From Liolophura sinensis (Eukaryota > Mollusca > Polyplacophora > Chitonida > Chitonidae): 64,000 bases of DNA. Position 1 is the first letter of the stretch, and the number at the start of each line of letters is the position of its first letter. This document shows positions 13,701 to 62,000 of this stretch, piece after piece. The position numbers were made by a program, and so were the translations under genes. The stretch spans positions 25,057,953-25,121,952 of the forward strand of contig NC_088307.1 in NCBI RefSeq assembly GCF_032854445.1, given 5' to 3'. Under the pieces are notes generated by a model, which was not told the origin of the DNA, ran no database searches, and was given only the letters and a program-made list of their open reading frames with translations.

Positions 13701-16700
13701 GAGAAGTTCACGAGATCATTGACAAGACAGAGAAGCTTCAAAAGGCTGCTCACAAATCTGTCAATGACGGTCTGACTCAGAAACTGGCTGAAACTGTCAC
13801 TCTGAAGGTAAAACCAACATAGAATTGAGGTCCTTTACATTTAGCATTCAGGCCTCCATCATATTAAGTCAATGGCTCAAGTTAAACAAAAGACAGGATG
13901 TTGTAGCCACTAAATTAATAATATCATAATCAGCAAGATTCACAACAAATCATGTATAGATAATCAGGCACAGTTAGAGAAGATCTTTGTTTTAGATGGA
14001 TTGAGTGTGGTCATGATATTTATTTGTCTTTCAGCTGCTAGAAAACACAAAGTTCAGGTCAGTCCTAGCCTTTGAACAGGGAATTCCCCTGAGCTCTCAC
14101 TGTTCATGGAGTCTTCATGACAATAAGTGGTCGATGACGCTTGTGTGGAGTGTTTGTAGTCAAACTTTTGTAGAAGAGCAATTGCTTTCCACCAAAAATA
14201 GGGCGAACATGTGCATGTCACATGTGGGAAAGTTTTCACATAACACATGCAGTCACATAAGTGAAAAATGATGGCATTAAACAACATTCAAATAAATGCA
14301 AATAAAAGAAGTTTATAAGCTACTGTTACGTATGGTACATATACAGCCCCAAATTTGAATATTCAATGGTTTCTTTGTGCCCGATACAGCAACATCTGGG
14401 TGTGTCACTTGGAGAGAACAGACATGCTGTACACAGAGCCCATCGATTCCTTGACTCTACAGAAAAAGCCAGAGGTTATACTTTGGTGAGTTATTTTATA
14501 ATTGTGCCCTGTGTAAATAAACTGCATATCACTACATATAGCTTGCAAATTTTTGAATATATACATGAGCTTACCTTGTCAGTTTTACTGATAAAATCTC
14601 ATCTTTTGTCAAGAACCAGTGCGCCCAAATAAATTATTATAATCTCAGCTTTTGATTTGACTTTACCTAAAATGTTCTCTATTTTTTTTCAAGTTCATTC
14701 TGCATTTTACACTATTTCTTAATCCACTGTAGAGATGCATGAGTTTTCAAATAATAACAGTTAAGTTGGAATTTTGTTGAATAAAGACTGATATAATTCA
14801 ATGTTCCTGTCTTTCTTTATTTTTTCTTTTCTTTTTTATGAAGGTAAATGGCATTGCAATTACTTTTCTCCATTTTATTTTTGTAGGGTCCTGTCATAAG
14901 TTCTGATCTCACCACACGAGAGCGTCTTGATCGTCCTTTGGTGCGGGTTTTCCAGAGGCATCCGGGAACTCAGCTTCCAGAAGCTCAGGAAATTGTTAGG
15001 GTAAGAATTCCCCCCTAGCTGATAGAGATGAGTGTGACCTGAAGATTGGTCACAGGAATCATAAGATGATTCTTATGATGATCAGATGGGTCCAGAAGAT
15101 GATGATGTCAGATTGAGAGTGGGTGGGGCCAGAAGATTATGATGTCAGATTGAGAGTGGGTGGGGCCAGAAGATTATGATGTCAGATTGAAAGTGGGTGG
15201 GGGCCTGAAGATGATGATGTCAGATTGAAAGTGGGTGGGGTCTGAAGATTATGATGTCAGATTGAGAGTGGGTGGGGCCAGAAGATGATGATGTCAGATT
15301 GAGAGTGGGTGGGGCCAGAAGATTATGATGTCAGATTGAGAGTGGGTTGGGCCAGAAGATTATGATGTCAGATTGAGAGTGGGTGGGGGCCTGAAGATGA
15401 TGATGTCAGATTGAAAGTGGGTGGGGTCTGAAGATGATGATGTCAGATTTAGAGTGGGTGGGGCCTGAAGATGATGGTGTCAGATTGAAAGTGGGTGGGG
15501 CCTGAAGATGGTGGTGTCAGATTGAAAGTGGGTGGGGTCTGAAGATGATGATGTCAGATTGACAGTGGGTGGGGCCTGAAGATAAAGATGATGTCAGATT
15601 GACAGTGGGTGGGGCCTGAAGATAAAGATGTTGTCAGATTGAGAGTGGGTGGGGCCTGAAGATGAAGTTGTCAGATTGAGAGTGGGTGGGGCCTGAAGAT
15701 GAAGATGTTGGCAGATTGAGACTGGGTGGTGCCTGAAGATGATGATGTCAAACTGAGAGTGGGTGGGGCCTGAAGATGAAGATGTTGTCAGATTAAAACT
15801 GGGCGGGGTCTGAAGATGATGATGTTAGATTGAGAGTGGGTGGGGCTTGAAGATGAAGATATTTTCAGATTGAGAGTGGGTGGGCAGAATGGAGAGGTAA
15901 CAACTCTCCAAGTAAATTTTGTGTAAGTTTGTGAGACTGTATATGTAGATGGTTCTCAGGCTGGATGAATGACAGTAGAGAGACCAGAAGTGAAATGTAA
16001 CAGGCTGTATTAGAAATGAATCTGAGCCATGATGTGCTAATATGGACACTGAATACAAAGCCTGTACATGTAGCAGGCCATGAAGTATGACAAGAGCCAC
16101 ACGTGTAAATTTGAAATGTGATCTTAAAGCTTATTTTTTGGCTTTGGAAATTAAAATTTCATCCAGCTTATCAATGTTACCTCAAGACAAATGGGTCTAA
16201 ATTTCAATAACAATAACTGAGCATTGCGAACAGGTTTTAAAGTTTGACTTAAGTTACAAATGGCTTTGGTGAGTCAGCCCCTGGTCATCCTGGTGTCTGT
16301 ATACTGTGACTGAGAGGGACATCATAGGTGGTATCTTCATGATGGTGTCCAGTGAGATGCAACACTCATATTTTACAAATCACATTTGAACTGGCCTGGT
16401 GTCACTCAAATTTTCAGAACTTGGCCAACCCAACCAGTGTAGTTTTGACTCCGAAATCAAATTAAAAAAGCACATAAATTGGAGGGAAAGTTGTGTTTCA
16501 TATGGTAGAGGAATTAGGGTAATGGTCAAACTTCCTGTACAGTCTAAAATTTGTAAATGAAAAAATTATTCATTCATTTTTTCAGGGTGGGGATTCACTT
16601 TTGGACTCGATCTCAGCAACCAGCAGAAACATTAACTACTTGTCGCTAGCGCAGCTGCGTTTGCGTGAAGACATGCGCAGTAAAACAGCCGCAGCCAGCA

Positions 16701-31722: not shown

Positions 31723-31988
31723 CAATCTAACGTTCGTTGAAATCTGTCTAAATATAAGTAAAGTTAACATCATCTTGCCAAAGGTCAGTGGTTTACCCAG
31801 TGCACTCTGGTTTCCACTACACATAAAATTGATTGCTATCTTAAATGTGAAAAATTTTTGAGTATGTTATTTAACAACCAGTAAATAGACAAACTACTAG
31901 GCTGGGCTGATCAGTCCAGGCGCCAACCTCTTAATACTGAGTATCAGTAGAGGTTGATGTTTTCTGGCATGGTACAGGACTGAACCTG

Positions 31989-32552
31989 GATTACTCGACT
32001 ATAAGGAGGTGCCCCAACCTGCGCTGCCATCAGAGTGGTGGAAATGGGGAAGAACATTACATGACAATGCTGAATTCGCACAGATTACTCGACTATAAGG
32101 AAGTGCCCCAACCTACGCTGCCATCAGAGTGGTGGAAATGGGGAAGAGCGTTACATGACTATGCTGAATTCGCACAGATTACTCGACTATAAGGAGGTGC
32201 CCCAACCTGCGCTGCCATCAGAGTGGTGGAAATTGGGAAGAACATTACATGACAATGCTGAATTCGCACAGATTACTCGACTATAAGGAAGTGCCCCAAC
32301 CTACGCTGCCATCAGAGTGGTGGAAATGGGGAAGAACATTACATGACAGTGCTGAATTCGCACAGATTACTCGACTATAAGGAGGTGCCCCAACCTGCGC
32401 TGCCATCAGAGTGGTGGAAATGGGGAAGAACATTACATGACAATGCTGAATTCGCACAGATTACTCGACTATAAGGAGGTGCCCCAACCTGCGCTGCCAT
32501 CAGAGTGGTGCAAATGGGGAAGAACATGACAATGCTGAATTCGCACAAAAAC
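31989..32552 (+). repeat. 94-bp satellite, six units
   Basis: The unit begins GATTACTCGACTATAAGG at 31989, 32083, 32177, 32271, 32365 and 32459, an exact 94-bp spacing. The body includes GTGCCCCAACCTGCGCTGCC and ACATTACATGACAATGCTG. Units differ by only a few bases, alternating AGGAGGTG and AGGAAGTG forms, so the array is young or homogenised. The last unit is shortened. Confidence 0.95.
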
Positions 32553-32596
32553 AAGATATAAGAGATACTGGGTGTGACTAAACTGCAAAAAGAGTT

Positions 32597-32862
32597 GTGC
32601 ATGTACGTGTAATGTGCCTCCTTGTTGCAGGACAGATTTCCACCGCTCTTTTATCTAGTGCTGCTTCACTGAGACGACTTACCGAAGGCAAAAAAGCCGC
32701 CCCGCCCGAGCCATTATACTGATACGGGGCAAGCAGTCCTTGCACTATCCCTTCATGCTGAACGCCAAGCGAGGAAGTTAAAACTTCCTCTTTTAAAGTC
32801 TTAGGTGTGACTCGATCAAGGATTGATACTGGATCTACCGGTCCCGAAGCGGAATGCTAAAA
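32597..32862 (-). mobile_element. SINE B 5' half, minus orientation
   Basis: The segment GTGCATGTACGTGTAATGTG continues through CTGCTTCACTGAGACGACTT and AGCCATTATACTGATACGG to CCCGAAGCGGA, where the tRNA-like head is cut. It is about 95% like the copy at 8605-8947 over this span by eye. It lacks the tail half, which lies inverted at 31582-31722. Confidence 0.8.
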
Positions 32863-38079: not shown

Positions 38080-41000
38080 GCAAGCACAGATTTAAGCGAT
38101 CAGACAAAGGAAAGAGGCTGTAAAAAGACTACAAGAAAGTGAACTAGTTCATTTCTTTAGAATTTTATCTAAATATGCCTCCCCAGCACGGACAGGAAAA
38201 ACACTCTGCCCAGCAATAACATCTCAAACATCTCAAACACAACAAATGTCTTTGTGAATTTGTCCCTTGTCGGATGGGGCAAAGGAGTAGTTACTACTAT
38301 ATCTGTATTGAAAACTTTCTTGTAAGATTTGGGATGATGCTTACCATCTCAAACAAACACATGGAATGTATAATACATAGGTGAAACCATTCATTCACAT
38401 CAAATGAATTCATATCGCAAATAGGGAAGCAATGTTAAGTCTTTTTTGAAAATAGTGTTAAATAGTGTTAAAAAATAATTTCTGTTGAGTTTTTTTGAGC
38501 CCCCCTCACCCTCTCACAAAAAGCTCAGTATATAATGTAATTGATCTCATCTTCCTCAATTATATTCTCAGATGAAGTTGAACAGCTGGAGCGTCAGTTG
38601 GAGGAAGGAGAGTCTCGCTACAGGAAGTTAGAAGAAGACCATAATAAATCCGTCCACGAGCTCCAACAAAGGGAGGCCACTGAGCAAGAGCGAAAGAAGA
38701 AAGAGCTTCAGAGTCAGGATAAGATGCAGGAGTTACAGCGAGAGCTTGACACCAAAAATGACTTGGTGAGGCAGCTTCTTTACATTGTAAATCTAGTAAA
38801 ATTGGAAGTGAATAACTTTACCAGGGAGATTAGGGTACAGTAAAAATTTTGGAACTCCTCATAGTAGAGAATGTGCAGACATTACCTCTCGTAGGAGACA
38901 TCAGCATAATATGACGAAAATAATGGTGAAAGTGGTGTTAATCTCAAGGTAAACAAAGATAAGATAATATACAAAAGGCTCTAGCCTGGTGTCATTGAAG
39001 ACTGGAATGTTGCCACACTTATATGGCAGTGACCTTTGGATACCAGGTATGTCAGGAATAAACAATGTACTGTGGTTTACTCGCTAGGTTCCTCATCTTT
39101 TAAAGCTGATATGCCACCATCATGTGTTTAAAATATTCTCACAGTATTAAACATCAGTTAGCTAAGTAAATATTGGCTTGCATGCAGTTTAGTGGAATTC
39201 CTTATTAATGTCCTGTATTTAAATCACCCATTCAATCATGAAATCATGTCTCTTTCTTCTATTACATCAGCTGAAGAGGAAAACAGCGGAGCTGACAAAA
39301 GCCTGTGAGAAACATTATCAACTGGAACAGGAGCTGGCCTTTTATAAAATCGACTCGAAATTTGAGACACTGAGTCACAGGCCACAGACAACAGACCTGG
39401 TACGATGTGGCTGGTGGAGTCAAGGTTTTTGAATGCCGTCAAAAGTTTGGACTCCACCACCTTTCTCCTTGGTTTTTATAGAATTCTACTAGCCTGTCTT
39501 TTCTTTAAAATGTACTAAAAATTAACAGTATTTTATATAGGGTTGCATTATGTCATTCTGAACTTAAAGAAATAAAATAAAACCATCTTTCAGAAACGTT
39601 TAGCGTGAAATTGGTATCCCTTTCAAGAACCCATTCATGTGTAAAATTTACACATTGTCCCATTTGAAATTATTGAAATGCTGTCAGTTGCCATTTGCTT
39701 ATGTTTTTCTAAATGTTCATATAAAGATCAAATAACAAAACATTTCAGGATTTAATGCTGATTAATGAAAGAAAAGTTTTCTTACATCCTGAATATTTTA
39801 ATTACATAATGAAATTTAAATAAATTTGTCTTGTACCTTTACATATATGATGATTATGCTCATGAGGTGGGTGTGTCATTTACATGTTAAATAAGTATAC
39901 ATGTGAATAACTTGTCTTAATGGCTTATAGGACGACAGTGGTAACCTGGATGAGAGCCCTTATATCGGTCGGGCTCGTTACAAAGCCAACAAGTTTGCGC
40001 AGGAGCAGGTAATCACGGCCACGCCTCAGCAGGCACAGCTTCACCAGAGTCAGTCAGCGGGTATATCCACATTAGGAATCCACCCTGATGTACGGGAACA
40101 GATGAACGAGACTTTAGACAGAGAAATCGCGGGTAAACAACAGGCCATTGAGAGAGGTAACTAAAATTTATTTATTTATTTATTTATTTATTTGATTGGT
40201 GTTTTACGCCGTACTCAAGAATATTTCACTTATACGACGGCGGCCAGCATTATAGTGGGAGGAAACCGGGCTGAGCCCGGGGAAAATCCACGACCATCCG
40301 CAGGTTGCTGCAGACCTTCCCACGTACGGCCGGAGAGGAAGCCAGCGTGAGCTGGACTTGAACTCACAGCAACCGCATTGGTGAGAGACTCCTGGGTCAT
40401 TACGCTGCGCTAGCGCGCTAACCGACTGAGCCACGGAGGCCCCAGGTAACTAAAAGAAAACAGACATAAAATTGATTAATCCAATATGAATATGTGTGTG
40501 ATATATTACATTCCATTTATGCCATCGTAAAACAGTACGGATTTGGATAAAAAGACCACAGTCATTCATTTATGTGTCTGTAATTATGATTACTAGCATA
40601 AATCTTTGTGATGACCAGGGCTCAATTTTGAGCTCTTAAAGTTTGTGAATTTTAAATATTTTGATACCTAGATCTGGAATCATAGAACGATCTTAGAGTT
40701 GAGTCAAAATTTCAAATCATTCTAAAATTATTATTTCTAATGTAACCAGGTCAGAAAGTTGCTTGACAACTTAAATTGTGGTTAAATTATTGTACAACAA
40801 ATTTTAGCTAAAATAACGGAAAGGAACGTACAAAAGTTAATGCCTGAAAAAGGCTTTGTGATCCCAGGGCCAGGTTTATTGTTTAATGCACATATAAAAT
40901 ACTGAAAGATGGAGGTTGTTATCTGTTGCCCTTTCATATCAGTTGACTATAATTTATCTGGACCACCATTATATTTACTCATTTATTTAATTGGTTTTTT

Positions 41001-44000
41001 ACACGGTTTCACTTATATGATGGTGGCCAGCATAATGAGCCCAAGAGCCCAAGTAAATACGAAAATATTGAAAGCTGACAAGTTTCATTCCAGAAGAAAG
41101 ATGCTGAACTGAAGGCTAAAGGTATAAGATGTGATTTCAGCTCAAGGCCGCCTGGAACGTCTCCAGGAGGAGCTGACACGCACAGAGAAACAGGTGCTCT
41201 CTGCTGCCCAGGAGCTGAAGAGAGTCAGTGAACTGACCCCCTACGCTGAACACATGGAACAGCACAAACAGCAACTCAGACAAGTTCTCGCCAAGAAAAT
41301 GCAGCATGTAAGTTGACCAGAGCATGTGGTCTAATGGGCGTTCGGCAAATACCAGACAGCAAGACCTTGGCCTTTGCATTTTACTGATGTCAGAATTTTC
41401 CTTTCCCTGCTCATCATTACGACGTCACATTAAAGACAGAAAGATGTGACAGCAAAAGCTAATACATTGTGGTCTTGTAGACATATGATTGTTACTTTCA
41501 TGACCTTGAATGATGATGGTTTAATAACATGTCGGCAATCTTTCAGCCATATTGTGGCGAGCTTATGACCTTTAATATTCTGACTCACTTTATTTTTGCT
41601 TTACGTACGATACATCTAATGTTGACTGATGAGACGACCTACAGTCCTCTTGACCTTTGACCTACTTTTCATTCCCAGGTAAACCAGCTGCGTGATGCTG
41701 CTGCCCAGGTAGAGGATGACATGGACCGTGTCCAGTCAGACGCCCAGCAGACCCGTGGTGACATCGCGGACCTCCGCAATAGACTTAGTGGCATGGATCC
41801 CAATGACCCGAACTATGTAAGTGAAGAATTTTAACTCAGGGTATGTGTTATACATACAGGATTGTCAGTCTTACCACACTGTTGGTGTTCATATGCATGG
41901 GGTATAGAAATGGCATTTATAGAGGGCAACAAATGTTATAAATTATTACTTTTGGTGCTGAAACAGTACGATATCATCGACCTCCCGAACAAATCTCAAA
42001 ATACATTTCTAAGATCAATACAACTTGTAGAATCAGGCAGCATGTGAAACAAGAAATAAATGAATAAATTTTAGATTTTAGGTAAATTTAATGTACCGTA
42101 TTAGGCAAAAGCTATTTTCTAGTTGTATTTCAGCAAATGATGCATTTAAAATTTAGGTTTCACTTACGTGAGCTTGCACTGCAGGTAAGAGCATGTGCAT
42201 GTGGAAAAGTCCTCCAGTGTCTTGGCAGTAGTCTGTGGTTTATCATTGATGAAGTCAAGTAAGCATCAATTAATCAGTCTTACAAAATATCGCTCAGCGT
42301 CGACATGTTTATGAGACTTTATGCAGGTAGTTCTCTCTGGAAATCATGCTGTTGGTTTTATTTTTTATGGGACTTATCCTCAGAGAAAAACTTACGCTGA
42401 AATGGTTGACAAAGAGCAACAGATCAGTGAAACTTCACAAATGTTTGGGGATTTACAACAACAACTGGAAGACATGCTGGACACTATCGCCACTGAAACC
42501 AATGAAATCAGGAAAATGGAACAAAAAGTTAATGAAGGTTGGTGAAAAGTCTAGATGGATACATGTACCTGTTTGGACTTGATTTCTGAGTTTAACATAA
42601 CCTCGAACAATCTTTAATCTCACTTATCACAGACAGGCTTGATTATGGTCGGATGTAAAAGCTTCATGAAAGTAGGGCCTGGAATGCACTTGAGTCTTGT
42701 GCAGACATGATATTCGCCCGTTTTAAAACGGAATTTTGTTTTTCATATTCCTGGCTTCCAATCTTTAAATTAAAATTCCGTTTTTTAAGCATGGGTGATA
42801 CTTTTTGCAAATATTTCCGTTATTTACCAGGTCACTCACTAGGCGTTTTTGGAGGGGCTCACCGCCCTTCCCTTATAAAACTGCATCTTGCTGCCTTTCT
42901 TAAAAAGATAATTGAGTCCTGCTGCCTTTCTTTCTTTCCTGTCATTATTTCAAACAATAAAACTCTGCCCAATAGGGTACAGCTGTCTGCTAAAACTCGT
43001 GTTGTTGTTGGGTCTAACTGTCAGTCCCTCAGTGTGATGCTAGATTGTTTCATTCTACACTGTTCAGCATTCAGCTGGTCGTATCGCATAGGAAGTGCTC
43101 TACCCCACAAAAACCAAATACTAGAGTCAAAACATCGCCTGAGTGCATGTGTCAAGCAGTTCAATTTGCCATTATTTTCGTGTGTGTGTGTCGAAACAAA
43201 AGCTTACAAGCCTTATGCTCAACAGCTCAAGAAGGGCAAAAAAAATGAGCCCATGACAAGGTAGCCTCGCCATTACAAAGCTCTTCAGTGGCATCTTCAT
43301 TAACAAGAACAACAACATCATCTCCAGCAGATCGTTCCAACTTGATTGCATTCAGTGGTAGAAACTCCAAATGAGGAAATTCGCAGCCAACCTGATGTGC
43401 CAGCATCATTTCTACAGAACCCAAACCCCAGAACCTCAAACAACAGCTTCTTGTGCTGAACTTTGATTGGTTGCTCATTAAAGATGACTTCACTGAGAAT
43501 ACACAACAAACATCCTCAGGACTTCTCTGTAAACTCTGTAAAAAGTTTAACACTTGTGCTTCAAATGGTAATTATATGTGAGCAAATGAGGCATTTAAAA
43601 TGCTTAGGAAGGATAAGGTCAAGGTGCACCTGAAAAGTTCTCAAGTTCGGTAAATAAATGCTGGGCAGTCCTCTCTTTCAGTTAAATATTTATTTATTTA
43701 ATTGGTGTTTTTTATCTGTTCTATCACATAAAATGAATGTTAATAGTATAAATCCTCAACAGTGTGCAATTTATGCATTAATATAATAAATGTGCTTAAA
43801 ACTATATTCTTTTTGTAATAAAAGAAATTAGACAGCATCACTTGCAAAATTAATGAGGGATTACAGTAATCACAGTTTGTCTTCTATGATCAACTTATGA
43901 CTGCTGTATTATGACGAAATCATTTCCGGCAATGTAGGATCGTTGGCAGTCGAGGGCGTCCAAACCCCAAACCCCCATTTATTTCACTCTCATCTGGTGG

Positions 44001-47000: not shown

Positions 47001-50000
47001 GAAGAGATGGAGGATCAACGTCAGCAGTTACAACAACTGAATGAGACAATTCCGCCCGAGGACCTTCGTCGCAGGCTTGAGCACCTCGCAAACGTTCTCA
47101 CCAGGGGAAGATCACCCATACAGCCTGAGAATCGCAAGGATTTTGTCGGGCAGACTTTCAAACATATTCAGAACTTTCTGCAGGACAAGTTGAATTCTAG
47201 CATGAAAGACACAGAGCGACTTCAAAATGACAATGCACGATTGGATGCTGAGGTTGAGGCTATGAGGTCAAAGGTGAATGATCTTCGAAATCAGGCGTCA
47301 AATTCTATGAACTCTGAGCTCCGCGGTCAACGGGAGAGCTATTTGGCTAAATTGGAAGCTGCGCGAAAGAAAGACGCTGATCAAATCAAAAAGTTGGAAG
47401 AAGAGTTGACGAAGCTCAGCAAGGCCCTGAAAGATGTCCATGCGAAACAAAAGCAAGGGTCGATGGGAACACAGGCAGGTACAGGCGCACGGACGCAAAT
47501 GGTGCATGATCCTGATACGGCTACGGAGACAGAAGGCGATTCCCTTAACACTGAAGAACGGGACCTCTTGGATGAACTACAGCGCGAACTAATGGAGTTG
47601 CGCAACAGCATGCGAAACAAAGAGCTGGAACAAGCAAAAAAATTAGCAGATGCCGAAGTCGAGGCTCTTGCCCGAGACAATGAGATTCAGCAGAGACAAG
47701 CAGCATTTCAGCAGGATGTAGATCGTCAGCGCCGTGAGCTTGATCTTGAACGCCAGCGTCAGGAAGCTCGTGCGCGCGTACTGGAGGATGATCTGGCTAA
47801 GGCGCGCTCAGATGCCAATGCTCTTCAGAGGATGCTGGAGGAAAAGACGTACAATCTGAACAACGGTCAGAATCCAGACATATCCAATCAAATGATAGGT
47901 GAGCTGCTTGATTTTACTTCTGTATTTGTCTTGTTTGTGGATATATTTAGGGTTTTATCTGTTACTTTCAAATTTGGTGCATAAAAAATTTTCTATTTTA
48001 AGTCTGTTTGTAGTGGTTTGGATCTCTGAAAGTCCAGCTTTGAAAACATTGAAACGCCTGGGATTTGAAAGTCATTTTACCACACCTGGGAAAGAGTTTT
48101 CTTGTGGTCAGTCTAGAAAAGCTCTAAATTGAGACAACAGAAGCAACCTAATTTACCGTGGTTGGGAATTTATTTTCCAGTGGCTTTGAAATTGCTTAAT
48201 TCACTATTGTGTGAAAAGGTTAAAGACTGATAGTATAACTATATGTAATAAAGGTCATTTTTTTAAACTTGTGTAAAATATTTAAGTAGTCTGGAAAATG
48301 TGAAATTTGGGTCTGGAAAGTTTTGAAGGGGAAATTTGAAATCTTTAAAGTATATGAACTCTGGCTCCAACTTTTAATCAGGCCATAGGCCTACATCTGC
48401 AAGCTGTCAAAGCGAAAGGCTTTATGTATGCTCATCTTCACTGACTTCGTTTAGCCCAAGTGGATAATTAATAATAATTTGTTGTTGTTGTACTGTCCCC
48501 AGCTGCACAAGAAGAAGAGATAGCTCATCTGTACGACATTTTAGAGCGACAGAGAGGAGAGATTGACCGGCTCAATGGGTCCTTACATCATGTGACAGGA
48601 GAAGGCCCGGACAGATGTGAGTAAATGGGACATGCAGACCATGGAAAAAATATTGTTATTTAACAACAGTTTTTATTGAAACCTTTGTAATCTGAAACCG
48701 ATTCCACAAAGTCATTTCTGATTTTAGTCAAAATTTGAGTACGATCTCAAAGCTTATATTTGGGTTTTAGAAATTAAAATTTTATACCCTTCGTCAATGT
48801 TATCTTGTATCTTGTGAAAAATGTGTCTAGATTTTCAATTTCCAGTACCTTATACTAGTAACTTATACACAGTTTTTAAATTTTAACGTCAGGCAGAAAG
48901 GACTTTGTGGAATTGGCCCCAGAGCCATAAGCAGTTTGGTTCTAGTACAGGACAAGTCAGTATAATGCTGTGTAGTTTTATCCCAGTAGTGTGCCTCTTG
49001 CCTGCCAGGGGCTTGTCTGTGGTCCACGCATAGAACAGTTGTGGTTGCAAACTAGATTTACTCACGTGTATTTATTAGAGTTTTATGCTGTTCTCATTAA
49101 TATTTGACATATGACAGCAGCCGGCGGCATGGCGAGAGGAGACTGAGCCCAAGGGGAGCTGGTCACCTTCTGCAGAGGAAGGCTAATTCTACAGTAGTGG
49201 AATGGTAGAAGTATGCTGAAGATGCACCAGTGGTGAGCCAGTGGCATGCCACTGAGAATCTTGGCTGGAAAATGGCTGGAACTGAATATTATAGCTTTAC
49301 TGAAACTGAGATAAATTCAAGCACTTCTATTGCTTGATTTACACTTTTAACACTGATATATTAAGGACACAGTTGAGCATAAACTCGGCTCTGATTTGAA
49401 ACTAGACTTTAGATTTCAACAAACTTGTTGGCCATAATTATACCCCTCTCTACAAAGTTGCCGGAATGTCTGTCTGCCTGTAGACACAATTTTGTCCATT
49501 TTGTCCCACCATAATGCTGGCCACTGTCATATAAGTGAAATATTCTTGAGTATGGCATAAAACACCAGCGAAATAAATAAATAGATAATGTGTTGCATTT
49601 TCATTCATTTGAAAACATTCTGCATTTCTGAAATTTTCATATTTTCAGACGGGCCTGGGTATGAAGAAGAAATGTCTCGTCTTAGAGGGGAAGTGAATCG
49701 ACTTAAAGAGACACTGGCCATGCAGTCACAGTACATCCAATCCATGTCCCCCACTGCCCATCAGTCAAGTGCCACACCACACCCACGTGGAGTTGCCACG
49801 GGGACTCAGTCCCAGATATACCCGCCAACACAGTCAGTGCCTGGTTTCAGGCAGCCTATCCCACAGCCCCCCTATCAGTTTCAGCAGTCTGTCTCTCGCC
49901 CCCACCCTAGGGCCCAGCACACTGGAGCAGTCCACCACCACGACCATCCGCATGCCCACATCCAACCCCACCACCATCACCCACAGGCAGCACAACATGG

Positions 50001-56000: not shown

Positions 56001-59000
56001 AATAATAATAATCTGAACGATTTCAAGAGGTGACATATACTTTATTTCGCCTAAGGTTTGGTCAGTATAAATGCACTTTCAGAAGCACATAAAGGCCATA
56101 AAATGCCAACACATTGAGTTTTTCTGATAAAAAATTAATGCAAAATTTGAATGGCCCTATAACTTGGATAAATTGGTCAGAATCAAGTAAAATGTGTTTC
56201 TTTGAAAATACTAAACTTTAGGTGAAATACAACAATTTACTTTCTCTGTTTATGATAATGGATGATAATCTGCTCATGGTGTACGTCACATTGTGGTGTG
56301 TTTTAGGAACTGGTAGAGCTTTCCCCACAGGTTGGCTACCCTATCCCCCAGGGGCTACAGGCGATCACCTCCAGCCCACCCCAGAGATCTCCCCAATAAG
56401 GCCAGTCCCCGTGCACCGGGCTGGCCCAGGCCAGCGTGAGCCACATAGTGGTCGCGCCACAGCAGTGATGCCTACTTCAACAGTGCCTCAGCATACCATG
56501 CCAGCGCCTCGGGATTTGATGCCGCCACCCCCTGTCCCGCCTCAACATCATCGTGACACGCATTCCATGCCGCTTCCTCACCAGTATGCCGACTCCACAG
56601 ACAGACACCAGATAGCTGCACCCACTTTCATGACCCAAGCTCCGACCATACCAGCAGATCCAATCCCTAAGGTTGCCCCCTCTGGGGCGTCAGGCACCCC
56701 AGTGATGTACCCACCTGTCTCAGCTGTGCCTGGTCAGCCCATGTTCATTCCTGTGACACCTGTGTATGCCCCTGGTAACTTGAATGACGCTGTCACTCAA
56801 ACTGATGCTCCACCCCCTGTCAGTCAGCAACCTACTATTTTGATGCCGATCAGCCCAATACGTAAGTACATGTGCTCTTTCAAAATGTATGGATTTTTTT
56901 TTTTATATCTACATGTATTTTATTGTGTATGATCATTCCTGAAAGATATGTTTATGTTGTACAGGCAGTATTTTGATATTGTATCACTATATGAAATACA
57001 AACACTGTTGTTGTCAGTATTTTTTTTAATACTCAGCATTCTCCACCCATAAGCATAACTGCTTTCGTATAAGGGAAGAAGTGTAATGTTCTTCATTGCA
57101 GCATTAAAGTCGATCAAATAAATAAATACTTCTCTGAAAATGTTGAGAGACACCTTAAGCCTCCAACCAGCATCAAAGGGTTACACCTTGTTTGTCAATT
57201 CATCAAGAATCAGTTTTCAGGACCGATCTTTTTCAAAAGAGTCCATTGTTGGTTAGTGCACTAGCGCAGTGTAATGACACAGGAGCCTCTCACCACTGCG
57301 GTCACTGTGAGTTCGAGTCCAGGTCATGCTGGCTTCCTCTCCGGCCATACGTGGGAAGGTTTGCCAGTAACCTGCGGATGGTCTTGGGTTTCCCCCAGGC
57401 TCTGTCCTGTTTCCTCTCACCATAATGCTGGCCGCTGTCGTATAAGTGAAATATTCTTGAGTATGGCGTAAATCACCAATCCAATAAATAAATAAATAAA
57501 TTTACCCACTTTCAGTTCATCACATTAGGCATGTTGAAACTTGGTACCTGGCTTCACCATTAACACTGATCAAATATATAAATAAAAACTGTTTTTGATA
57601 GTTGTGATTTTGCTCTCAGGGTATAGCATGGACTCTTGCCCTGAAAATGTTACTAACACTACTTTGACGTCTGACCTCAAGAGCACTACATCTTGTCTGA
57701 CTGGCTGAAATGACTCAGTTTCCATCTCCCACTACTTGTGTTGTTGCTTTTTGTATGTATGAATGTATGTAGCTTCACTTTTCAAACTACACTGTGCTTT
57801 GTCTTCTTTTATATGTATATGTTTTGGCAGGACTGTGAAGTACATGTTTATTGTTTTCTCAGTGAAGGCCTTGGGGAAGAACAGTTTCATTGTAAACTGA
57901 CCAAGCTACCTTTGATAAATAAAGATATTATTATTATTATTATATACTAGCACAAATAACCGATAGTAGCTGATGCAGAGGTAATAAGAAGGTCTTTATT
58001 TGAAACCTGAGCAACACTTCACAAGTAGAGCTTATTTGGGTCATAGTATGGGTAGATACTATATCCCAGATATGACTAGTGTTCTCTTGCATTCATCAGG
58101 CACATGTAATACATTACCACCTCGAAATATGTGAGCATAGATTAGCTCAGAGGAATTTGAGACCTCGTACATGCGGCACTTCAGTCGCATGTGGCAGCGG
58201 CAAGCAGACAGTGAGATGCCATGAAGCAGAGTTTTATGTTAACGTCCATAATATTGAATTGACAGTGTTTTTACCTTGTGAACATTTTGGCACAAGTTAT
58301 ACTGCAAATGAATGAATGTCTGCAGTCTAGAACCAAGGATTCAAACCAACGACCTCAAAATCTGACACCTAATCGGCAGCAAAACTTGTGAACTTTCCAA
58401 GCCGTGATATAGCTGATAGATTTTCCACAAAAAGAGGCGTCAGATAACCAACAAGCTTTACTGTATTTAATCTGAGCTTGCATACTTGCAACAAGAAAAA
58501 CATTAACTTTCCTGGAACCTTTCTCAACGACACGCATTGTGGACATGCATTACGCTTTCATTGTCAGTATCATTTTATGGCCGGTCACAAAATCTTTTCA
58601 TGTGTATGTTGAATTTTGTTCTGTGGTTAATGTGCTATAAAGGTGTTTGCTGGTTTGACTCCACTACCAATAGAAAAAACCTGTGTACTTACAATGCTTG
58701 GCTCACTGACTGTTGAAAGTCAAATGCGTTAATTCCTTTAGGGTGAGAGGTGGTGGTGGGGCAGGAAGCGTGGGGGAGGGGATGGGTGGATGAGGGCTGC
58801 AGAAATAGAGGATTAAAGGAATCACATTACATGCATTACTTATGAGTTATACAAGGTGTTACTGGATTAGAACCTTTCCTGAGATGGTACTATAAGGAAT
58901 CACATTACATGCATTACCTCTGAGTTATACAAGGTGTTACTGGATTAGAACCTTTCTCGAGATGGTACTATAAGGAATCACATTACATGCATTACCTCTG

Positions 59001-62000
59001 AGTTATACAGGGTGTTACTGGATTAAAACCTTTCCTGAGATGGTACTATAAGGAATCACATTACATGCATTACCTCTGAGTTATACAGGGTGTTACTGGA
59101 TTAGAACCTTTCCTGAGATGGTACTATAAGGAATCACATTACATGCATTACCTCTGAGTTATACAGGGTGTTACTGGATTAGAACCTTTCCTGTGATGGT
59201 ACTATAAGGAACACAAACTTTTAGCCATTCAACTTACAATTCATTGCATGTCTCTACTCCTGCTCTCTGGCACAACTTGAGAATGTTTCTCGACCACTAG
59301 TCTCAACAGCAAGCATTAATAAATTCTACACGTATATACCCATAGGTAACCATGACGGCTAAATCCACCTGTCATGGAGAAATTTAACATGCCTGGAGCA
59401 GGCAAAACCTATGCTATTTTGACCCTGAATTATATGTGAAAATAGATTATATTTTTTACACAGTGTTATATCCTCTATGACATACGTGAGTTCCTCATGC
59501 TTCCTCATCCAAGACAGTTTTTCGTCTATGGCGACACCAGTTTGATTTTTGTGTTTTTACAGGCGAATCCGAATAAAACTGAAAATTCAGTTTTTCTGTC
59601 ATGTTTTTTCTGTCATAATGTTTTTGTTATTTTTCTGTTCTTTTTTTTAAAGCTTTCCCATCATGTAAATACTTACATGTCTTCAGCAGGGAAAAATACC
59701 AAGATACAGGCAGTCAGTATATATATTTTCCACCAGGCTTAGATGATTTTCTGGTTTTATTTTTATACCTTCTCCGACATTGAAAAATTGATTTATTCTG
59801 ACTGTAAAACAATGAATCAAATTGGTGTGGCCTAAAGTCTTCTCTTTTTTATTAGCTTCTCATCTCTCCCAACCTCCTTATGTGTAGTCTAACCCCCCCC
59901 CCCCCCCCCCCCCCCACTCCCCTTCCCCTCCAGAGAGTGATTAAATATCTAGACCATATACATGCTGAAGTACCTGAAGTTAATCAGGCTGATCCCCTTA
60001 CCTGTGAAGTGTGTGATTGTCTGGACTTGTTAGCACAGGTAGACAACAATACAGGTCAAACAGCTTACCTGTCCATTACATGGGCTTAGATAGGCCTGTG
60101 CTTGTCCCACTAACAGCACCCCCACCCCCACCCAAGTACCTGCAATGGGCCAGGGCTATTGAACTGCTCCATAACACTAACAGCACTGTCTGTATGTTGC
60201 CCCTTTGGAAATGTCTTTCGTTATATGAGAGTCTGGCTTGTTGTTGTTGTTGCTGTTGGCTTTGCTGAATGGAATAGCCCTTGACCAGATATTGTCTGTG
60301 ACGTCCCTGTTAAAAGGTGACATGTAATTCCCTGGATGTCATCTTGCTACCTGTGCTCATCTTCAACCCAGGTGTCTAGAATTTCCATAGTCGGAGCTCT
60401 GCACAGCTGTTTCCTGGATCATTTGCCTAGTGTTATACATTTGTAGTGTCAATGGCATAGCTGTAGAAATGTGATGATTTTTTTCACAAGTTGTGGCTAA
60501 CGATATGGATTTATTAATTACCGCTGTGAAACTGTCTTCTATGTGAATTGTTTCACCTCTTGACGCTAAACCAAAAGTGTGTGGTGTACTTATTTCACCT
60601 CTTGACATTTTAGCCAAAAGGGGAATTTGAAAGTTGTGGTGGTTATCACATGGTAAACTGATGTCGTTTCATTAAAGAGCCAGCATTTCACAATGAGCAT
60701 CTGAGAAGGGGTGAAGGAGCAAACCGAGCCTTTACAGCTGCCTCCAAAAGTGTGAACGGAATTCTTTTACCTCTTTACACTTTAACCAGAAGGAGTGTGG
60801 TGTACTTGTGACATACTAGCCATTTTTGGACAGTTTTGTGTGAATTTTTAGATACTTTTAAGCGAATGTTTACTAACTGGCAAGTTTTGGACGTCTCTAT
60901 GGGCAGGTTCGCCAGTCAGGGAGTTTACTTCGGTCAGATCTATATGAACGTGCTTCATTAATTCTCAGATTTGATCTTGATAACTATCCAGTTACATGAT
61001 AAAGGTAAAGTTACCATTTCTGTTATATTTTCACAAATTTATATGTTCAGTTACTTGTGCAGTCTTGTGTGGTTGATGAATGTGCATCACATGTAACTAA
61101 AGGTAAATGTGCATCACATGTAACTAAAGGTAAATGTGCATTACATGTAACTAAAGGTAAATGTGCATCACATGTAACTAAAGGTAAATGTGCATCACAT
61201 GTAACTAAAGGTAAATGTGCATCACATGTAACTAAAGGTAAATGTACATCACATGTAACTAAAGGTAAATGTGCATCACATGTACCTAGGTATGGACATT
61301 TATTATAAAGTTAAATTAAATATATGCTCTGTGTGATTTTATTTAACAGATATTAAATATAGTCACTTCTGATACTTTTGAGGAGACAGGCTGAGAGCTT
61401 TATAAGTGTATTAATTATCCTTGTGAATGACAGTTTACATGTGTTCTGACGTTTTACCTTTCATTGGTTAACACAGGAAATGCATATTCATGTACATACA
61501 CTGGCGACCCTAAGTGGGAAGGTCTGCCATCAACCTCTGGATGGTGGTGGGTTTGCCCGGCCTCTGCCTGGTTTCCCCCCACAATAATGCTGGCCACCGT
61601 CATATCAGTGAAATATTCTTGAGTGCGTCATAAAACACCAATGAATCAAACAAATCAAACTCCGGCTGTTTGCTGTCAGAATATTGCTTTTGGTGTTTCA
61701 AAATAAATGGTACTCTTGCACCTGTTGACTTATTAATTATACATGTAAATGTAGCAAACCGTTATTTTACACAAAATTTGTGCCCAAAGAAGTACATCTT
61801 TAGTTTTACATTGTGCCAGTATATACCCTAAATTAAAACTTGGTTTTGTAAAAAAACTAAAAGACTTTGTCTTGAGCATTTACATGTCTGATAATAACTG
61901 CTCTACCTGTGTGTGACCTACCTGTGGTTGTTAGGTCTATTAATGAGTTTACCTGCTCCAATTAACACATTAGTTGCAGGTGTGGATATAAGTGTGCCAA

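Follow-up and report, generated by a model that had tools for sequence, protein, structure and literature searches.

The window, the whole stretch of 64,000 nucleotides that was analysed, contains a centriolin-like gene on its forward strand. At the end of one exon of this gene lies a SINE-type repeat in antisense orientation, flanked by two copies of a 12-bp sequence that covers the exon/intron junction and its donor (Table 1). Following the initial annotation, we take the gene to be centriolin and the exon to be number 7, its peptides presumably resembling those of human centriolin. Pfam retrieved leucine-rich repeats in two upstream exons and nothing in three other pieces, exon 39931-40156 included; leucine-rich repeats followed by a coiled coil are, we assume, an architecture consistent with centriolin. 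A PDB search with the exon returned a single match (E value of 0.13), which was disregarded. The search for a second haplotype or paralogue showed that the exon DNA matches the assembly once only.

Table 1. Features at the SINE insertion site (positions in the window)
Feature	Positions	Strand	Evidence
Exon (number 7 in the initial annotation), 226 nt, phase 1 end, coiled-coil coding	39931-40156	+	Open frame, heptad register, codon score
Left copy of 12-bp target-site duplication, covering exon/intron junction	40155-40166	+	Exact match
Proximal donor GAG|GTAACT	40157-40162	+	Sequence; 3.8 bits (generic matrix); U1 duplex −6.6 kcal/mol
In-frame TAA for any transcript running beyond the proximal donor	40162-40164	+	Translation
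SINE copy, 277 bp, antisense to gene	40167-40443	−	Repeat comparison, assembly matches, duplication
(AAAT)n tail of SINE, (TTTA)n in gene sense	40167-40193	−	Sequence
Box-B-like motif GAGTTCAAGTCC	40354-40365	−	Sequence by eye against consensus
CTAAC, branch-point-like, 24 nt before end of AG 40444-40445	40418-40422	+	Sequence compared with consensus
Box-A-like motif TGGCTCAGTCGG	40422-40433	−	Sequence by eye against consensus
Right copy of target-site duplication	40444-40455	+	Exact match
Distal donor CAG|GTAACT; AG 40444-40445 doubles as possible recursive acceptor	40446-40451	+	Donor score 4.7; U1 duplex −8.0; acceptor score −2.8
Next exon (number 8 in the initial annotation), phase compatible with 40156	41141-41307	+	Open frame 41128-41316; acceptor score only −2.5

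The end of the exon

The open frame from 39931 to 40164 ends in a stop (...KQQAIERGN*), so the exon end lies before 40162. The phases match when 40156 is joined to 41141, and the resulting protein is free of stops and keeps a single heptad register throughout, in which the fraction of strong hydrophobic residues at positions a and d is 0.69. With the alternative donor at 40132, which is also phase compatible, the register is shifted and this fraction is 0.46, the upstream piece used for the comparison being short. Three codon models, none of them trained on this exon, all give a coding score to the final 40 codons upstream of 40156 and place them first among the 53 SINE loci described below. 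The GTAAAC at 40133 forms a better U1 duplex than the proximal donor (−7.6 kcal/mol) but has a lower matrix score (1.6 versus 3.8 bits). An automatic ranking of introns by generic splice matrices places 40008/41212 first and leaves 40156/41141 out of the four best because the acceptor at 41141 is weak. The pair 40156/41141 is preferred despite this ranking because of the open frame, the codon score, and the heptad register, and these three lines support the left copy of the duplication as marking a real exon end at 40156, against the call of the matrices.

Shortly upstream of the next exon, region 41094-41140 contains a 28-nt stretch, AAGAAAGATGCTGAACTGAAGGCTAAAG (KKDAELKAK in one frame, coiled-coil-like), situated between CAG and GTATAA and 19 nt before that exon. 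Its acceptor scores 1.9, above the acceptor at 41141 (−2.5), and it does not match the phase of the preceding exon. This stretch is possibly a relic or a cryptic exon start.

The SINE and its target-site duplication

The sequence AGGTAACTAAAA is present exactly twice in the window, which is improbable by chance (the mean in shuffled sequences was 0.02, and none of 100 shuffles reached two). The two copies, which the initial annotation had correctly placed at the flanks of the SINE, form a perfect 12-bp target-site duplication across the exon/intron junction. They enclose a 277-bp SINE-type repeat on the minus strand that starts with GGGGCCTCCGTGGCTCAG and carries an (AAAT)n tail. The motif AG|GTAACT starts at 40155 and again at 40444, and the donor motif lies wholly inside both copies of the duplication. 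As had also been noted from the sequence, the left copy thus holds the end of the exon and the GTAACT donor, and the right copy restores AG|GTAACT at 40446, with a spacing of 289 bp (277 + 12) between the donors. The predicted SINE-free site, AGAGAGGTAACTAAAAGAAA, reconstructed from the flanks of the SINE-bearing allele, agrees with the flanking sequence.

The survival of the splice site had been regarded as unusual, but retention is automatic when the duplicated target covers the site, and in this gene the donor was retained because it does. The arrangement supports target-primed retrotransposition of the SINE into a 12-bp target that covered both the exon end and its donor as the way in which a donor survived on both sides. 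What is rare is striking a real donor at all, not keeping it afterwards.

A search of the host assembly (609 Mb, 632 contigs) showed that the SINE family is dispersed. The 40 places scored out of 2600 candidates all matched, the 39 others being 92 to 97% identical to the copy in the window, and the 17-base 5' end of the SINE has 7011 exact occurrences. Target-site duplications were detectable in 28 of 30 fetched copies, with lengths of 11 to 29 bp and of 12 or 13 bp in 21 of the 28; two of these, L014 and L025, are unsafe, as an equally good repeat was present in the shifted control. The duplication-bearing copies have (AAAT)n or A-rich tails, except for L025 and L028, in which the detected duplication does not come after the tail. 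The element is thus a short, many-copy dispersed repeat with target-site duplications of variable length and a simple 3' tail, as is typical of SINEs. The 12-bp duplication in the window is of normal size for the family, and the insertion is an ordinary retroposon event with a family-typical target duplication.

The box-like motifs of Table 1 were judged by eye against the consensus, and ARAGORN retrieved no tRNA gene in 40100-40520. An Rfam search with the SINE gave no matches at E values up to 1, and a text search of the literature with 24 letters of its 3' part gave no match. SINEs of the tRNA type are described as widespread in molluscs, for example, RUDI and Nin-SINE (PMC11121367, PMC6934838), and the present element is a candidate for a SINE of this type. 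The SINE in the window differs from the consensus of its 30 nearest copies at 8 of 251 positions (3.2%; range within the set, 1.6 to 4.4%) and has no private substitutions among the 71 of 74 copies compared (three with short matches were left out), but, with C/T and G/A variants being shared, both figures are ambiguous and do not date the insertion.

SINE copies at AGGTRA and related systems

The 7011 exact 5' ends were surveyed in both orientations for AGGTRA within 8 nt, which retrieved 66 copies, 46 in the orientation found in the window and 20 in the other. By arithmetic, chance alone would give about 31 AGGTRA motifs across 7011 ends with nine offsets each. A duplication covering AGGT is present in 37 of the 46 and 16 of the 20, giving 53 copies. 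Four of the 46 (L041, L048, L052, and L065) are not independent, since they have one common flank; they share the duplication CAGGTGACATTGA along with this flank, as the SINE had landed in a larger repeat before this was copied. The more than twofold excess of one orientation comes at least partly from an AGGT at offset 0 and from this four-copy flank.

On the exon side, the copy in the window has coding scores of 14.4, 10.0, and 13.3 bits under three codon models, the highest of the 53 under all of them, with runners-up at 4.4 (L075), 6.6, and 5.4 (both L049). It is the only clear coding-side case among the 53, in a test of moderate power. In a kinase control, the model trained on both, with the tested locus left out, placed 42 of 68 chunks above 5 bits, many real exons thus being missed, and the centriolin-trained model alone placed 15 of 68 chunks above 4.4 bits; two of the ten kinase loci were left out of this control for internal stops. 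A possible second case of a SINE on a coding donor is L049 (G000:C6:6207945-6208812), where a 15-bp duplication covers AAAGAG|GTAAGAT and a 60-codon open stretch with a weak coding score precedes AAAGAG|GTAAGATT. The expected number of antisense hits on AGGT donors is 5, 10, or 16 for an assumed 100,000, 200,000, or 300,000 donors, a comparison that is loose and yields no firm conclusion on depletion because the survey took AGGTRA only. Insertion of this kind is an ordinary process, but few SINE copies lie on a donor that is demonstrably coding, and clean cases in coding genes are rare.

A close known system is canine merle, where an antisense SINE at the intron 10/exon 11 boundary of PMEL is described with a 15-bp duplication containing the original acceptor, and where long tails go along with splicing to a cryptic acceptor in the SINE (PMC7349775). 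As described there, merle has in common with the locus in the window an antisense SINE at an exon/intron boundary and an original splice site inside the target duplication, and it displays the alternative splicing with a SINE-derived cryptic site that is possible in the centriolin-like gene. In merle, the sites concerned are the exon 11 acceptor and a cryptic acceptor after poly(T), whereas here the duplication concerns a donor and has left two nearly equal ones. That account of merle also includes a phenotype and RNA evidence. The locus is the donor-side counterpart of merle, and its mechanism is already known.

Two published accounts of intron gain are also related: introners are described as drawing splice sites from target duplications (PMC9860276), and one published model explains precise intron gain by the insertion of transposons into AGGT (PMC3443670). 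As in these accounts, a duplicated target holding AG and GT yields a GT-AG unit that is potentially removable without trace. In contrast, the insertion in the window struck an existing exon/intron junction and involves a SINE, whose family is not generally found at coding AGGT. The family was considered as a candidate introner, with many copies forming introns at element ends, and this was rejected, as one of 53 copies is clearly coding by a test to which many real exons are lost (42 of 68 control chunks above 5 bits).

Donor competition and the predicted fate of the transcripts

The initial annotation described two equal donors 289 bp apart. The spacing is as described, but the donors are not equal, as base −3 is G in the proximal donor and C in the distal one. 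Because of this C, the distal donor has one more base pair with U1 and pairs better with it (−8.0 versus −6.6 kcal/mol). It also has the higher matrix score (4.7 versus 3.8 bits) and is the strongest donor within 40100-40470. Folds predicted over 200 to 700 nt give the proximal donor an unpaired probability of 0.30 to 0.32 and the distal donor one of 0.42 to 0.66, the proximal one being less accessible. As judged from the sequence, donor strength alone would favor the new, distal site, whereas exon context and exon size would favor the old, proximal one. When donors are duplicated, the one nearer the acceptor would generally be favored; a text search of the literature on this proximity effect in duplicated donors found nothing.

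The codons past 40156 are GGT AAC TAA, which places a stop inside the left duplication copy, 6 to 8 nt beyond the normal exon end and 281 nt upstream of the junction at 40445. Use of the distal donor would exonize the whole SINE, as had been proposed; this holds for the mRNA but not for the protein, which is truncated after two extra residues because of the in-frame TAA. The value that had been implied for such an isoform is therefore not supported, since the distal isoform is truncated whatever follows. A stop this far upstream of an exon junction is expected to lead to mRNA decay, and the distal-donor transcript is expected to be a poison-type isoform that would be degraded. Pairing of the distal donor with SINE-internal acceptors allows 17 exons, of which 16 contain a stop and one, of 15 nt from 40431, is open; among all AG...GT pairs of at least 15 nt in the insert, 6 of 61 are open. 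SINE inclusions are thus nearly all, but not all, unproductive.

These data probably reflect a donor duplicated by a SINE, where 40156 is the ancestral and mainly productive site, 40446 competes with it and gives a truncated product, and the insertion has been kept. The putative tRNA-type SINE would have been inserted by target-primed reverse transcription, antisense to the centriolin-like gene, into the 12-bp target AG|GTAACTAAAA at the exon/intron junction, and duplication of the target left a donor on either side of it, as the sequence shows. Frame and heptad register suggest that the exon ended at 40156 ancestrally and, most likely, that this end is still the mainly productive one. The donor at 40446 would compete with it through slightly better U1 pairing and a position nearer the acceptor, and its use as a simple exon extension would lead to the TAA, truncation, and presumably decay. 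We propose that splicing at 40156 in a sufficient part of the pre-mRNA explains why the insertion persists. The observation in the initial annotation is confirmed by this analysis, and of its interpretation, the insertion on a 12-bp target, the competition between donors, and the inclusion of the SINE through the second donor are supported.

It is unlikely that the distal donor is instead the main one, which would make the allele a partial loss of function with most transcripts SINE-extended and truncated, and the insertion recent, heterozygous, or deleterious. Such a 515-nt exon would need defining, the SINE copy is in the only assembled haplotype, and 3.2% from the consensus is not low within the set, although the distal donor surpasses the proximal one in U1 pairing, matrix score, and accessibility in the folds and lies nearer the acceptor, and the SINE may be young because it has no private substitution among 71 of 74 copies. 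A SINE-derived cassette exon of the kind known from exonized antisense Alu elements, running from an acceptor in the antisense SINE (the best at 40304, with a score of 0.6) to the distal donor and joined to the proximal one, is scarcely to be expected: such acceptor scores are modest and a stop is found in 16 of the 17 exons of this kind, even if the internal acceptor beats that of the next exon (0.6 versus −2.5) and the exon would be closed by the strongest donor in 40100-40470.

The interpretation in the initial annotation lacked a third route, two-step (recursive) removal. Since AG and GT are both part of the target, the inserted unit (40157-40445) starts with GT and ends with AG, with GTAACT directly after it, and the right AG|GTAACT could act as a recursive splice site: 40157-40445 would be removed first, rebuilding the donor, and the rest of the intron second, to give a normal mRNA. 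The geometry is exact (left GT, right AG|GT), and a CTAAC derived from the complement of the SINE box A region lies 24 nt upstream of the AG. The published ratcheting-point consensus, (y)nncag|gtaagt (PMC2773006), and the insertion of transposons into AGGT as a route to precisely bounded introns (PMC3443670) also point this way. As in recursive splice sites (PMC2773006) and in [D1,2] stwintrons, removal of an internal GT...AG unit would rebuild the donor of the outer intron, but the present locus differs from these in its weak acceptor and short intron (984 nt). With an acceptor of −2.8 bits that ranks 18th of 58 among the AGs of the intron and has hardly any pyrimidine tract, this route is improbable. 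If it operated, any antisense copy that keeps the complement of box A and lands on AG|GT would bring part of its own splicing-out equipment; the SINE would be excised and the donor rebuilt each time, leaving the mRNA unchanged.

If RNA confirms the preferred reading, with 40156 mainly productive and 40446 in competition, the locus would be a natural version of the classic duplicated-donor competition. The same GTAACT would be present twice with one acceptor, differing in base −3 and exon context, and a wrong choice of donor would bring a stop at once. A comparison of populations that carry or lack the SINE would measure how much exon context counts against donor strength and proximity, as well as the frequency with which a retroposon is tolerated on a donor.

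Other repeats are present in the window. At 40972-41036, the intron holding the SINE contains a second family member in the same orientation, a short and old relic (71% over 77 positions). Tandem arrays are located at 15050-15883, 31895-32625, 58738-59289, and 61025-61315, with periods of about 37, 94, 78, and 27 bp. A sense fragment at 49499-49588, which lies 9.2 kb downstream and precedes a later candidate exon of this gene, is 87% complementary over 90 nt to 40176-40265 of the antisense SINE. Their pairing is a possible stem around several exons, with a bearing on exon skipping, on circular RNA, or on RNA editing.
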